Source: Sulfurimonas sp. (lineage in GTDB: Bacteria > Campylobacterota > Campylobacteria > Campylobacterales > Sulfurimonadaceae). From it: a stretch of DNA of 64,000 bases. Positions 57,793-64,000 of this stretch are shown piece after piece; position 1 is the stretch's first letter, and each line of letters starts with the position of its first letter. Made by a program: the position numbers and the translations under genes. Location of the stretch: contig NZ_JAQTLH010000004.1 of the NCBI RefSeq assembly GCF_028714975.1, forward strand, positions 124,001 to 188,000. The letters are read 5' to 3'. The notes under the pieces are model-generated. The model did no database searches, had not been told where the DNA came from, and was given only the letters and a program-made list of their open reading frames with translations.

Positions 57793-58635
57793 CTATACAC
57801 CCTTCGCAATCCCGAGATTTAAAGATTTTAACATCTCCAAATCTTGGCTTATTGCGCGCCCGCTTGTTGTAAGGTAATTTCCTATAACAATCGAGTTTGC
57901 ACCGTGAGAAAAAATCTCTTTTTGTCTCTGCCCAAACATCAGTTCTCTTCCGCCTGCAACCATTATTCTCTGTGCATCGGCAATGATGTCTCTTGTTAAT
58001 CGTATAAGTTCTAAAGCTTCATCAATCGTGAGAGGATTAGGCTGCAGTTCTAGGGCTTTGTTATGATGGTAAAAATTTATCGGAACGGATGTAGGATTTA
58101 GGGATTTTAGCGACTCTAGCATTGAGATTCTGTCCTCATGGCTCTCTCCAAGCCCAAAGATACCGCCGCTTATAAGAACTAAACCTGCTTCATTTACATT
58201 TTTACACGTCTCATATCTCTCATCCCAAGAGTGGGTCGTACAGATTTGCTCATAAAACTCTCTTGAAGTCTCAAGATTATGGTTGTATGCTTTTATGCCT
58301 GCTTTTTTTAAGATTAAAAGTTGTTCTATATTTGCCGTTCCGTTGCATGCGATTAGTCTGAGTTTTGGCAGTTCTTTTGTTAAAATCTCTGCAATGTTGC
58401 AGACAAGAGAGAGAGTTTTATCGTTTAACCCCTTATCGGATGTGACCAGACAAAAACCTAAAGCGCCGTTCTCATAAGCTGTTTTTGCCTCCTCTAGGAT
58501 AAGCATCATATCTTTTTGCTTGTATCGCTCTATGTCAGCTTTGTATCTAACGCTTTGAGAACAAAATTTGCAATCTTCATTGCATGTTCCGCTGTTTATG
58601 TTACAAATCGAGCATAAGAATATCTCGTTATTCAT
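57793..58635 (-). CDS. bioB: Biotin synthase
   Basis: 280 residues from MNNEIFLCSIC. I start at the ATG within the yfcE end; the longer frame lacks support. The radical SAM cluster is in CNEDCKFCSQS (CxxxCxxC), and GGRELMFGQRQ near the end is typical. It is shorter than E. coli BioB (346), as in other Campylobacterota. It inserts sulfur into dethiobiotin. Confidence 0.9.
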   Translation of the reverse strand: MNNEIFLCSICNINSGTCNEDCKFCSQSVRYKADIERYKQKDMMLILEEAKTAYENGALGFCLVTSDKGLNDKTLSLVCNIAEILTKELPKLRLIACNGTANIEQLLILKKAGIKAYNHNLETSREFYEQICTTHSWDERYETCKNVNEAGLVLISGGIFGLGESHEDRISMLESLKSLNPTSVPINFYHHNKALELQPNPLTIDEALELIRLTRDIIADAQRIMVAGGRELMFGQRQKEIFSHGANSIVIGNYLTTSGRAISQDLEMLKSLNLGIAKGV

Positions 58636-59152
58636 TTTCTTCTCTTTTGAAGTTAAATTCTTGCTTTTCAATACTATCACTTTTATTTGTTCTTGTATAA
58701 AGCGTTACTATAAACTCACTCTCTTTTACCTCCAGCATTGCCCATTCCGAGATAGGTTTGTTTCTTGCGCAAACTTCTCCGGAGTTTATAAATAGAGTGT
58801 TGTTCATAAACTCTACGCTTGATTTATGCGTATGACCGTATATAATGACATCTGCATCGGGAATCAAGTAAAACGGCAGATGCATAAGTTTAAAGTTTGT
58901 ATTTGCAAGTCTAAAGTAGTAAGGTTCTTGAACTAAGTGATACTCAGAGTGGTATTCTGCCAGATGTGCATCGTTGTTTCCATAGACGGCTATGTATTTT
59001 ACACCGCTATCTTTGAGTAGTTTTAAAATATCAAGTTCTACAATATCACCTGCATGAAGGATAACTTCAGCACCGTCTTTTATGAGAGTATCAATCGCAC
59101 GGGCAGCTTTTTTAACCTTTCTGTGCGTGTCTGAGATAATACCTATCTTCAT
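58628..59152 (-). CDS. yfcE: YfcE-type phosphodiesterase
   Basis: 174 residues of the calcineurin-like family. Metal residues are in IGIISDTHRK, LHAGDIVE, YGNNDAH and IYGHTHKS. Overlaps bioB by 8 bases and follows topA by 7. Substrate uncertain; MJ0936/YfcE members hydrolyse small phosphodiesters. Confidence 0.85.
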   Translation of the reverse strand: MKIGIISDTHRKVKKAARAIDTLIKDGAEVILHAGDIVELDILKLLKDSGVKYIAVYGNNDAHLAEYHSEYHLVQEPYYFRLANTNFKLMHLPFYLIPDADVIIYGHTHKSSVEFMNNTLFINSGEVCARNKPISEWAMLEVKESEFIVTLYTRTNKSDSIEKQEFNFKREENE

Positions 59153-59159
59153 AGCTTTT

Positions 59160-61376
59160 TTACTTTATATCTTCTATAGGAGTTTTTGCTTTACACTTGA
59201 TACACTCATAAACCTCTTTGCCTCTGTAAACTCTTTGTGCTAAAACACCATCGCAACCGGATTCTTTGCATTTTATGGTTGTCGGTTCAAATTTGGAGAT
59301 AAATTTACATTTCGGATAGGCGGCACATCCCCAAAACGGACCGCGTCTTGAGTTTTTAAGGCTTATCTCTCCTCCGCACTCAGGACATGGCGTAAGACTT
59401 ACTTTTGTCTCAACATTTATGCTTTTTGTATTTTTGCACTCAGGATAACCGCTGCATGCTAAAAATTGACCGTTTCTGCCGCTCTTTAGCACCATATCTT
59501 TGCCGCACTTCTCACACACTTCACCGCTTGATTCCGATGGGGTACTCTCTTTTTTTTCACCTTCGACCTGCTCGGTATATTTACACTTCGGATATGCGCT
59601 GCACGCTATAAACTCTCCAAATCTTCCGGAGCGAAGAAGAAGCTCCTCCCCGCACTTAGGACAAGCACGCCCAAGAGGTTTGGTTACTTTTAGAGATGTT
59701 ATACTCTCTTTGCCCTCTTTGACCTTTTCATCAAAAGGGAAGTAGAAGTCGCTTAAAAGTTTTTGCCAGTCATTTTGTCCCTCTGCAACTTCATCAAGCT
59801 TCTCTTCCATATTTGCCGTAAAACTTACATCAACGATATTTGCAAAATTTTTCTCCAGCATCTCTGTTACCGTAAATGCCATATCCGTAGGGATAATCTG
59901 CTTTTTCTCAATCGTTACATAGGTTCTGTTGCTAAGAGTTGCGATTGTCGGAGCGTAAGTTGAGGGTCGCCCGATTCCTTCGCTCTCCAGTTTTTTGATA
60001 AGTGCCGCCTCCGAGTAGCGAGCCGGTGGTTCCGTGAAGTGTTGCTCAGGTTTAACGCTTTGAATAATCGCACCCTCTCCCTCTTTTAGAGCCGGTAAGA
60101 GTTTATCTTTGTCTTCGGCTCCCGTGAGTGCGTAAAAACCGTCAAATATTAGTTTTCTCCCGCTTGCTCTGTATTCGTTCTCTTTTCCGCTAAATATGAT
60201 ACTTTGCTGCTCAAAAACGGCATCATTCATCTGGCATGACATAAACCTCTCGTAGATAAGGCGGTAAAGCTTTATCTCATCGGGCTTTAAAAAACTTTGC
60301 GCAATCTCAGGAGTAAAGTCAAGCGTAGTAGGGCGTATAGCCTCATGCGCCTCTTGCGCTCCCTTTGCTTTTTTGGTGTAAACTTTAGGCTCAGACGGAA
60401 GATATTTTTTTCCAAATCTACTCTCAATAACACCGCGAACGGCATCAACCGCTTCTGCTGCAAGGTTAAGTGAGTCCGTTCTCATATAGGTAATCACACC
60501 GCTTGTTCCGTTTGGAGTTTTTACACCCTCATAAAGCACTTGAGCTACCATCATAGTTTTTTTAGGAGTAAAGCCCAGTTTGCTTGAAGCGACTTGCTGA
60601 AGAGTTGAGGTCATAAACGGTGGAGGCGTTGCGCTTCTTCTCTCTTTTGTTTCGATGCTTGAGATGACAAATGTATCATTTTTTACGCTTACAGTTATTG
60701 CATCTGCCGCAGTTTTGTTCTCAATGGAGAGTTTTTGGAGTTTTTCTCCCTTGTGAGAGATAAGCGCTGCTTCTATATCTTTTTTAAATAGCGTATCGAT
60801 AGTCCAATACTCTTGCGCAACAAACGCTCTTATCTCTCTTTCACGGTCTACTACAAGTTTTAGAGTCGATGACTGAACACGCCCTGCCGAGAGACCTTTT
60901 TGGATTTTTGAACTAAGAAGCGGAGAGAGTTTGTAACCCACAACACGATCAAGCAGGCGGCGTGCCTGCTGTGCATTTACCATATTCATATCTATTTTGC
61001 GAGCGTTTTGCAGTGCGTTATTTATGGCAGTTTTTGTTATCTCGTGAAATACGATTCTAGGAAGTTCTTCGGGATTTTTATCTATCGCGTGAGCTATATG
61101 CCAACCTATTGCTTCACCTTCGCGATCCTCATCGGTCGCGATATATATCGTATCACTCTTTTTTGCCAAATCTTTAATCTGCTTTACCGTAGGCATATTC
61201 TCTTTTGCAACGCTATATGCGGGTATGAGATGGTTTTTTTCATCTATCGTGATTCCAAAACGAGCTTTTGGAAGGTCGCGTATATGACCTTTAGATGCGA
61301 TAACCTCATACTCTTTGCCTAAAAAGTTTTTAATAGTCTTTGCTTTAGCGGGTGATTCGACGATAATTAAGTTCAA
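59160..61376 (-). CDS. topA: DNA topoisomerase I
   Basis: 738 residues. The Toprim part begins IVESPAKAKTIKNFLG and has ATDEDREGEAIGWH. The active tyrosine is in GVITYMRTDSLNL. Four C-terminal Cys4 zinc ribbons run from about 575, each with a CPKCG- or CPECG-type start. It relaxes negative supercoils. It starts the operon topA-yfcE-bioB. Confidence 0.97.
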   Translation of the reverse strand: MNLIIVESPAKAKTIKNFLGKEYEVIASKGHIRDLPKARFGITIDEKNHLIPAYSVAKENMPTVKQIKDLAKKSDTIYIATDEDREGEAIGWHIAHAIDKNPEELPRIVFHEITKTAINNALQNARKIDMNMVNAQQARRLLDRVVGYKLSPLLSSKIQKGLSAGRVQSSTLKLVVDREREIRAFVAQEYWTIDTLFKKDIEAALISHKGEKLQKLSIENKTAADAITVSVKNDTFVISSIETKERRSATPPPFMTSTLQQVASSKLGFTPKKTMMVAQVLYEGVKTPNGTSGVITYMRTDSLNLAAEAVDAVRGVIESRFGKKYLPSEPKVYTKKAKGAQEAHEAIRPTTLDFTPEIAQSFLKPDEIKLYRLIYERFMSCQMNDAVFEQQSIIFSGKENEYRASGRKLIFDGFYALTGAEDKDKLLPALKEGEGAIIQSVKPEQHFTEPPARYSEAALIKKLESEGIGRPSTYAPTIATLSNRTYVTIEKKQIIPTDMAFTVTEMLEKNFANIVDVSFTANMEEKLDEVAEGQNDWQKLLSDFYFPFDEKVKEGKESITSLKVTKPLGRACPKCGEELLLRSGRFGEFIACSAYPKCKYTEQVEGEKKESTPSESSGEVCEKCGKDMVLKSGRNGQFLACSGYPECKNTKSINVETKVSLTPCPECGGEISLKNSRRGPFWGCAAYPKCKFISKFEPTTIKCKESGCDGVLAQRVYRGKEVYECIKCKAKTPIEDIK

Positions 61377-61483: not shown

Positions 61484-61510
61484 TAAAGTTATTTTTTGCG
61501 GTGTCGATTT
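61484..61510 (+). promoter_or_regulatory. Sigma-28 (FliA) promoter of the flagellin gene
   Basis: TAAAG (61484-61488), a 15-base spacer, and TCGATTT (61504-61510) match the epsilonproteobacterial FliA consensus (TAAA-N15-CGAT). The ATG lies 75 bases downstream, giving a leader typical of flagellins. Confidence 0.75.
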
Positions 61511-61584: not shown

Positions 61585-64000
61585 ATGGGATTTAGAATTA
61601 ATACAAACGTTGCGGCAATGAGTTCACATGCAAGTGCGTTAATGAACAACAGAAACTTAGATAATTCATTAAATAAATTATCTTCAGGTCTTAGAATCAA
61701 TAAAGCGGCGGACGATGCGTCTGGTCTTGCTATCGCAAACTCACTAAAAACACAAGCTTCTTCACTCGGTCAAGCTATCAACAACGGTAACGATGCTATC
61801 GGTCTTATCCAAACTGCTGATGGTGCTCTAAGCGAATACTCAAATATCCTTGATACTATCAAAACTAAAGCTGTTCAAGCTGCGTCTGATGGTCAAAACT
61901 CGGCTTCTCGTTTGGCTATTCAAAAAGATATAGATCGTTTGTTAGAAAACCTAAATACGATTGCTAAAACAACTTCGTTTAACGGTCAAAAACTTTTATC
62001 AGGTACTTTTACAAATAAAGAGTTCCAGATGGGTTCTAATTCAAATGAGACTATCAAAGCTTCTATTGCTTCAGCTGAAACAAGTCAAATCGGTCAAACT
62101 AGCCGTGCAACGTTAAGTGTTGCTCAACTTGGCGAAAACCAATTTACACTTAAAAGTGCTACAAGCGGTAAAGAGATAACTCTAGAGTCTGTTAATCTTC
62201 AAATGAACAATAATCCGGAAAATGGTATGGGTAAAATTGCTGATATCATGAATAAATATAGTGCTGAGACGGGTATCTCTGCAAAAGCGGTTGTTACAAC
62301 AACAACAGGAACAGCTATTAAAGCAGGCGTTACGGGAGCTGATTTTTCTATTAATGGTATAAATGTCGGTGCTGTAAATGTGTCTGCTAATGATAGTAAC
62401 GGAGCCCTTCTAACAGCTATCAACGGTAAATCAACAGAGACAGGTGTTTCTGCAACTAAAACTGAAGATGGCAAGATAACTTTAACATCAGCGGATGGTC
62501 GCGCTATAAGTGTAACAGGCAATATTGCCGGTGTTATGGGAAGTACTGCTGATGAAATGAGTACTGTTGGACATCTTGAAGTAGTTCAAGCTGGCTCGTC
62601 AACATTTCAAATAACTGGCTCACCTATGGGTACGGCAGTTGGTGAAGATATGGTTACAACCGGAACTATGACAACAGTTCAAGATTCTACTCTTGCTATT
62701 GGTAGTGTTATTGTTTCAGGTGCCGTTTTGGCAGCAGGTTCAACAGTTGGAGTTGCATTATCTTCTACTGAAGCTCAAGCTCTCTTCTCTTCAACTCAGG
62801 ATAGTACCTTAGCAGTCGGTTCTGTTATAGGTTCAGGTTCTAAAATTGAGCATGGAACGACTCTTGGAACAACAATTACAACAAGAGAAACTGTAACGCT
62901 TACAGCAGATATGCTTCTTAAAGCAGGTTCAGTTCTTGGTTCTAACAGTGTATTCGATGCAGGTACGGTATTACAACAAGATATTACTGTTGCAAATGTA
63001 CAGTACAAAGCGGGAACAACACTTGTTACCGATTTAACATTGACATCATCACTTACTCTTTCAAAAGATATGGTTATGACTATAGATATTCAAAATCAAA
63101 ATGCTGCAGTAGCTTCTGGTAGTAAACTTTTAGCAGGTACAGTATTAGGTGAAGATATCACAACAACTGGTACATCTACAGTTTCAACAGAAATGGTAGT
63201 TAAAGCCGGAACATCACTTCTAACGGGAACTATATATGCGGTTGGTTCAAAAATGGGTGACAACGTAACTATTTCTGGAGATAAAACAACTACAGATGTA
63301 ACTGAACTTAAAGTAGGTTCAACAATCGGTAGTGGTTCAACACTTAAAGAGAACTCAACTATTGGTGGTGAAGTTCAATTAAGAGCAGCAGTAGTACTTA
63401 ACCAAGATATGGTTGTAAAAGCCGGATCACTTCTTGTTTCAGATACTACACTTAAAGCCGGTACTATTATCAACCAAGACTTAACTGATGCACAAGTTGG
63501 TGGTGGTGCAGGTTCAGGACTTAAAGCCGGTACTGTTTTAGGAACAGATATAACATTAACTGATGATGTATATGTTACTAAAGACTTTAACATGCTAAAA
63601 GGTAAATCAGGAACAAATGCTACATTAGCTCTTGGTTCAAAACTTGCAGCAAACGGTGGAGATTCAAATAGTGTTACAATGAGCGGTGAGGAGTTTACAA
63701 ATCTCTCAGATATTGATGTAACTACACTTAAAGGTGCTATGAAGGCTATAGATACTGTAGGTGCGGCTATGACAAATCTTGATACGATTCGTTCAGATTT
63801 GGGTTCTGCTCAAAACCAAGTTGTTTCGACTATTAACAACATTTCTGTAACGCAAGTAAACGTTAAAGCGGCTGAGTCTAACATTCGTGATGTTGACTTC
63901 GCACAAGAGAGCGCAAACTTCTCTAAATTTAACATTCTTGCTCAATCAGGAAGTTATGCAATGAGTCAAGCTAATGCTGTTCAACAAAATGTAATGAGAT
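61585..64000 (+). CDS. Flagellin with a large hexapeptide-repeat central domain (3' end outside window)
   Basis: At least 805 residues; conventional flagellins have about 500. The N-terminal D0/D1 (MGFRINTNVAAMSS..., RINKAADDASGLAIANSL) and C-terminal D1/D0 (TIRSDLGSAQNQ, AAESNIRDVDFAQES) are standard, and only a few residues are missing at the end. Residues about 200-310 include a flagellin IN motif (ADFSINGINVG). From about 355 to 690 the chain is built of six-residue repeats of the type AGS-V-L-G, SNS-V-F-D, AGT-V-L-Q, like a left-handed beta helix. AAAAGGA precedes the ATG. Confidence 0.9.
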   Translation, partial: MGFRINTNVAAMSSHASALMNNRNLDNSLNKLSSGLRINKAADDASGLAIANSLKTQASSLGQAINNGNDAIGLIQTADGALSEYSNILDTIKTKAVQAASDGQNSASRLAIQKDIDRLLENLNTIAKTTSFNGQKLLSGTFTNKEFQMGSNSNETIKASIASAETSQIGQTSRATLSVAQLGENQFTLKSATSGKEITLESVNLQMNNNPENGMGKIADIMNKYSAETGISAKAVVTTTTGTAIKAGVTGADFSINGINVGAVNVSANDSNGALLTAINGKSTETGVSATKTEDGKITLTSADGRAISVTGNIAGVMGSTADEMSTVGHLEVVQAGSSTFQITGSPMGTAVGEDMVTTGTMTTVQDSTLAIGSVIVSGAVLAAGSTVGVALSSTEAQALFSSTQDSTLAVGSVIGSGSKIEHGTTLGTTITTRETVTLTADMLLKAGSVLGSNSVFDAGTVLQQDITVANVQYKAGTTLVTDLTLTSSLTLSKDMVMTIDIQNQNAAVASGSKLLAGTVLGEDITTTGTSTVSTEMVVKAGTSLLTGTIYAVGSKMGDNVTISGDKTTTDVTELKVGSTIGSGSTLKENSTIGGEVQLRAAVVLNQDMVVKAGSLLVSDTTLKAGTIINQDLTDAQVGGGAGSGLKAGTVLGTDITLTDDVYVTKDFNMLKGKSGTNATLALGSKLAANGGDSNSVTMSGEEFTNLSDIDVTTLKGAMKAIDTVGAAMTNLDTIRSDLGSAQNQVVSTINNISVTQVNVKAAESNIRDVDFAQESANFSKFNILAQSGSYAMSQANAVQQNVMR

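Follow-up and report, generated by a model that had tools for sequence, protein, structure and literature searches.

A Sulfurimonas flagellin with a hexapeptide-repeat outer domain, most likely a left-handed beta-helix, beside a Maf-type transferase gene

The DNA analysed in this study, referred to below as the window, is a stretch of 64,000 nucleotides from a Sulfurimonas genome (contig NZ_JAQTLH010000004.1), and the last gene it contains encodes a flagellin of 808 amino acids. The reading frame starts at position 61585 on the forward strand, and its last three residues and stop codon fall beyond the edge of the window, with the end of the gene at 64008 in the contig. The features of the locus are as follows.

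57793 to 61376, minus strand: bioB, a phosphodiesterase gene and topA, flanking the flagellin gene and conserved around the flagellin site of Sulfurimonas as well as of Sulfurospirillum
61484 to 61508, plus strand: predicted sigma-28 (FliA)-type promoter, TAAAGTT-N12-GTCGAT, a consensus match
61585 to 64000 (to 64008 in the contig), plus strand: major flagellin gene, 808 amino acids, last gene of the window
61585 to 62094, plus strand: N-terminal D0/D1, residues 1-170 (Pfam Flagellin_N; alignment to Campylobacter jejuni FlaA, PDB 6x80)
62095 to 62620, plus strand: Campylobacter-type D2/D3, about residues 171-345, including the Flagellin_IN motif (phmmer alignment to FlaA; Pfam)
62674 to 63654, plus strand: hexapeptide-repeat outer domain, resembling a left-handed beta-helix (LbH), residues 364-690, about 46 hexads, at the D4 position
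63718 to 64000, plus strand: C-terminal D1/D0, residues 712-808 (Pfam Flagellin_C; FlaA alignment resumes at about residue 712)

The two ends of the protein are those of an ordinary flagellin. Flagellin_N (PF00669, residues 5-143, 5.9e-43) and Flagellin_C (PF00700, residues 722-805, 9.5e-28) lie at its opposite ends, and the Flagellin_IN motif covers residues 253-304. The promoter, predicted from the consensus, is the single match in the window, where 0.01 would be expected by chance, and it ends 77 bp upstream of the flagellin. No other ordinary flagellin gene is present in the genome, the other Flagellin_N match being a long FlgL-type protein (L003, G000:C2:200036; open frame of 830 amino acids), which is probably FlgL. 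Judged from its sequence, the 808-residue product, whose D0/D1 ends are normal, is a major flagellin of the sigma-28 type and is predicted to assemble into a filament.

A phmmer alignment to C. jejuni FlaA (PDB 6x80) is continuous from D0 through D3 to about residue 345, then decays, and resumes at residue 712, so that the hexapeptide insert occupies the place of the FlaA D4 domain. In FlaA, D4 is inserted before the C-terminal D1, is the most exposed domain, bears most of the glycans and has no structural homologues (PMC8306008, a review). An earlier note on this DNA had assigned the repeats to the outer D2/D3 domain of the filament. The outer position holds, but D2 and D3 are both present, and the insert stands in the place of D4 instead of replacing them.

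The outer domain itself, which separates D3 from the C-terminal D1, is built of six-residue repeats over a length of about 325 residues. A hydrophobic period of six is restricted to about residues 364-690 (62674-63654), where its power is 1.76 against a shuffle mean of 0.21, a value reached by 0 of 5000 shuffles; the signal is absent from the N-terminal, middle and C-terminal parts of the flagellin. A cyclic six-state hexad model trained on 16 homologues gave log-odds of +102 to +143 for these homologues and of -78 to -102 for shuffled sequence, and its consensus reads [LIV]-[GKA]-A-[GD]-[ST]-[TV]. The six-residue rhythm that the earlier note had seen in the middle of the flagellin is therefore real, but its description as strict is not: the rhythm is broken at five places (near residues 390-405, 469-473, 503-508, 634-645 and 671-680), with a few insertions interrupting the roughly 46 hexads of the window's protein.

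Above the level of the hexads there is a super-repeat of 36 residues, or six hexads, seen as an autocorrelation peak (17 of 2000 permutations). Tests for repeats of hexads gave 154 of 2000 for modulus 3 and 432 of 2000 for modulus 2, and these values do not alone separate three-sided from two-sided coils. We rejected the use of the repeats to decide between coils of 18 and of 12 residues, the six-hexad super-repeat alone being clear. Two parts of the domain, residues 410-498 (62812-63078) and 576-670 (63310-63594), can be aligned to one another with about 46% identity, and thus a long internal duplication enlarged the domain. The variation in length by repeat recombination that had been predicted from the repeat-rich DNA was not found: Tandem Repeats Finder detected no array in the flagellin DNA, and all 18 homologues are 800-810 amino acids long even though the outer domain diverges down to 39% identity. 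Indels among the homologous outer domains are limited to a few places in a 16-sequence alignment.

Profile searches relate these repeats to LbH proteins. The outer domain of the window alone scores 31.9 bits against Pfam Hexapep (PF00132; cut-off 27), the same family is matched by 16 of 16 homologous outer domains (best 9.8e-12), and all of the Pfam families matched by the outer domains are LbH families. In control searches for Hexapep, neither three shuffled sequences nor the reversed sequence, which keeps the period of six but not the motif, gave any match, and none was obtained with the short flagellins of the two genera. A family profile searched against the PDB finds QdtC (1.3e-7) and LpxD (4.6e-7), then LpxA, GlmU and other LbH enzymes; an hhalign comparison between the outer domain and LpxD scores 94% (E 1e-7), and in whole genomes the weak second-tier matches of the profile are mostly to LpxD-like proteins. 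Searched alone against the PDB at E values up to 10, the outer domain matches LbH enzymes only and no flagellin; the largest flagellin among the matches listed, 9au6 (793 amino acids), is found by the full-length query but not by the outer domain. The hexapeptide, LbH-type signature claimed for the region on first reading is thus confirmed by Pfam, by the PDB profile search, by hhalign and by the negative controls. None of the columns that are invariant, or almost so, in the 16-sequence outer-domain alignment holds a conserved histidine, so there is no sign of an acyltransferase active site, and we rejected acyltransferase activity for the domain.

Predicted structures bear on the fold less directly. 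AlphaFold, working from shallow alignments of three and six rows, gave a pLDDT of 45.7 for the whole outer domain and of 66.3 for a 143-residue segment, the second half of which reached 73-87. The strand pattern, EE----EE----, places short strands at every sixth residue. This prediction, proposed earlier as a check on the fold, returned a beta-solenoid and no beta-sandwich, although at low confidence. With these models, no match from Foldseek had an E value under 0.07 and none from VIA a Z score over 8. The matches that fell short of significance include both an LbH acetyltransferase (Z 7.5, rmsd 11.4) and right-handed solenoids placed about as high, so that no family can be excluded from them. 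Given the low confidence of the models and the mixed structural matches, the handedness of the solenoid is unproven.

The domain could accordingly be a different beta-solenoid, either right-handed or flattened and two-sided with coils of 12 residues, whose hexapeptide-like motif arose by convergence, which would leave the biology of the outer domain unchanged. The low confidence of the models is compatible with this, as are the pentapeptide-repeat and right-handed beta-helix proteins listed by VIA and Foldseek and an autocorrelation that is higher at 12 residues than at 18. However, it is the LbH families that the profiles match, with position-specific agreement along the motif, and the reversed sequence of the same period finds none of them. 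Shallow alignments are, moreover, a known cause of wrong handedness in structure predictions. We consider a solenoid of another type unlikely, though it deserves to be kept in view. That the outer domain is a beta-solenoid is well supported, and an LbH is the best and most likely reading of it, with a left-handed sense presumed.

The hexapeptide domain has an uneven distribution. Among 135 Sulfurimonas genomes searched, the full-length outer domain occurs in the window's genome and in two others (G060 and G062), and fragments of it in a further two (G026 and G047). Of 24 Sulfurospirillum genomes, 13 have an LbH flagellin, with D0/D1 82-89% identical to that of the window, and 10 have a short flagellin (open frames of about 450-520 amino acids), with D0/D1 55-61% identical. 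LbH flagellins are also present in three further genera of the Sulfurospirillum family, and in another genus of the window's own family (G502), and a third family is represented by a single genome (G349); strong matches to the outer domain were obtained in 14 of the 397 genomes of a phylum sample. In a tree built on the flagellin core without the outer domain, the LbH flagellins form one clade (96/93), implying a single change, and forcing the Sulfurimonas flagellins into one clade was only marginally rejected (p-AU 0.056). The hexapeptide domain marks one flagellin lineage, frequent in Sulfurospirillum and rare in Sulfurimonas. A phage source of the outer domain was also considered and rejected, as tblastn against phage records gave no match and IMG/VR contained no relative.

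Three of the LbH genomes carry a tandem flagellin duplication (L005/L012 in G060, L007/L013 in G062 and L089 in G502), and the window's genome has a single copy. The outer domains of the duplicated copies are identical or nearly so and their ends differ slightly, which suggests gene conversion of the middle of the gene.

Short and LbH flagellins are found at the same chromosomal site, flanked to one side by bioB and topA and to the opposite side usually by a maf-type gene; in G502 the flagellin-maf pair is present and topA and bioB are absent from the stretch read. Identity of the window's topA and bioB is 79-87% within its own genus and 55-59% against Sulfurospirillum. The N-terminal part of its flagellin, on the other hand, is 87-88% identical to LbH flagellins of Sulfurospirillum as against 61-66% to short flagellins of either genus, and its Maf is 62-75% identical to that of most LbH Sulfurospirillum as against 34-35% to that of short-flagellin members of Sulfurimonas. 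Compared with the Sulfurospirillum allele in G288, the LbH domain and Maf are 74-75% identical and D0/D1 is 88% identical. Because the flagellin and Maf are Sulfurospirillum-like but topA and bioB are like those of the window's own genus, the pair was probably transferred together. Of the Sulfurospirillum genomes, all 13 with an LbH flagellin contain the Maf family of the window, as against none of the 10 with a short flagellin, a contrast that is confounded by shared ancestry. Over 16 genomes, Maf identity correlates with LbH-domain identity at a Spearman rho of 0.84, compared to 0.45 with D0/D1 identity. The Maf of one LbH Sulfurospirillum (G363) is only 39% identical, divergent Mafs also adjoin short flagellins in Sulfurimonas, and no Maf match was found in the fragmented assemblies of two LbH members of that genus (G026 and G062).

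The same distribution might in principle result from vertical inheritance, if the LbH flagellin were ancestral in the order and had been lost repeatedly, in most lineages. Its occurrence in several families would fit such a history, and at a p-AU of 0.056 a single clade for the Sulfurimonas flagellins is not formally rejected. Yet the flagellin and Maf of the window resemble those of G288 far more closely than topA and bioB resemble each other between the genera, and we regard repeated loss as quite improbable. The flagellin-Maf pair is probably a cassette exchanged between Sulfurospirillaceae and a few members of Sulfurimonas at the topA/bioB-flagellin-maf site.

The gene directly downstream of the flagellin carries the MptE-like and Maf_flag10_N Pfam domains and encodes a Maf transferase. 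Beyond it, in the orientation of maf, follow genes that match PseI, a fusion of PseG with PseH, an aminotransferase like PseC and amidation genes of the WbuX/HisH/HisF type, so that a Maf transferase adjoins the flagellin and genes for Pse synthesis lie near it. In this pseudaminic acid cluster PseG and PseH are fused in one open frame of 462 amino acids (L081 10955-12340, G000:C4). The WbuX/HisH/HisF-type genes, an N-acetyl sugar amidotransferase set, are located between maf and the pse genes (L081 2652-5150, G000:C4). G060 also has them, but none turned up close to the flagellin in those Sulfurospirillum LbH loci that were inspected; the acetamidino modification may therefore vary. In Aeromonas caviae, Maf1 glycosylates the Aeromonas flagellin in the cytoplasm (PMC4065374). 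The rows of Thr and Ser expected to face outward on the solenoid probably carry nonulosonates.

Such rows could also serve a different end, the solenoid being an ice-binding or adhesive surface with Thr ladders as in LbH antifreeze proteins and not a glycan scaffold. Thr does occupy the sixth position of the motif, which is expected to face outward, in 19 of 46 hexads. The PDB profile matches, however, include no antifreeze protein, leaving the comparison with these proteins made in the earlier note without support as to function, and the genome ties the flagellin to nonulosonate synthesis and to Maf; we judge an ice-binding or adhesive role to be very improbable. Hardly credible is the proposal that the region is ordinary hypervariable, low-complexity flagellin sequence forming a beta-rich shell with no defined fold, its rhythm a by-product of a composition rich in Ser, Thr, Gly and Ala: central regions of flagellins are often variable and rich in Ser and Thr, and these two residues make up 27% of the outer domain and 25% of D2 here, but the rhythm exceeds that of composition-preserving shuffles, length is kept and indels are few while the domain diverges, and the short flagellins of the same genera lack the hexapeptide match.

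Our overall reading is that of a beta-solenoid in the D4 position, most likely an LbH and probably glycosylated by Maf, within an exchanged flagellin-Maf cassette, to which we assign a probability of about 0.62. In the mechanism that we propose, D0/D1 would build the core of the filament and D2/D3 its inner shell, and the solenoids at the D4 position would form a rigid outer layer, perhaps projecting as rods. If built like the LbH enzymes, about 46 hexads would make roughly 15-16 coils, about 75 Angstrom in length, with the hexapeptide beta-helix used purely as a scaffold. The rows of Ser and Thr on the solenoid faces would probably be O-glycosylated with pseudaminic-acid-type sugars by the downstream Maf, in the cytoplasm and ahead of export, and the fold together with its cognate enzyme would constitute a surface-type cassette swapped between families. 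Masking of the surface or resistance to shear may be the function served. The full picture, in which the filament is clad in long left-handed beta-helices, the scaffold fold of an enzyme was recruited once as D4, its faces became ordered glycan arrays through a co-transferred cognate Maf, and a serotype-like cassette of flagellin and Maf passes from family to family at a single chromosomal location, is more tentative, and we put it at slightly less than even odds.

Flagellins with unusual outer domains are already known. A partial literature search, covering few subscription journals, found no report of a beta-helix, LbH, hexapeptide-repeat or solenoid flagellin, and within that coverage the impression given in the earlier note that no such flagellin was known holds. 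The flagellin of S. multivorans, which may or may not be of the LbH type, is expressed according to proteomics (PMC4585668) and is not counted as support here. The outer domains of flagellins are highly diverse and their folds and origins mostly unexplained; the affinity of this one can be read from its sequence. A widespread repeat type of acyltransferases would here have become an outer domain of the filament, in a lineage rich in Sulfurospirillum relatives. That the domain goes with a single Maf subtype makes it a natural test case for the determinants of Maf-flagellin specificity, and transfer between families at one site would indicate by what route the surface types of filaments are spread among free-living Campylobacterota. 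In addition, ordered arrays of molecules could be displayed on a regular solenoid outside the filament, which would make a simple scaffold.

The closest known system is C. jejuni FlaA, a member of the same gene family, which has the same colinear order of D0, D1, D2 and D3, an extra outer domain before the C-terminal D1 and a comparable nonulosonate/Maf context. In contrast to the window flagellin with its 808 residues, FlaA has 576, its D4 is much shorter, and the hexapeptide repeat is absent from the alignment of that domain. The outer domain shares with the LbH acyltransferases LpxD, LpxA, QdtC and GlmU the hexad [LIV]-x-x-[GD]-[ST]-x and a profile similarity of about 1e-7, but unlike them it lacks a conserved histidine, is set inside a flagellin and runs to about 46 hexads. 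The Maf resembles Maf1 of A. caviae (PMC4065374) and the Mafs of C. jejuni (PMC13130089) in its MptE-like and Maf_flag10_N domains and its Pse neighbours; unlike those known Mafs, the subtype found here pairs with one type of outer domain and appears to move with it.
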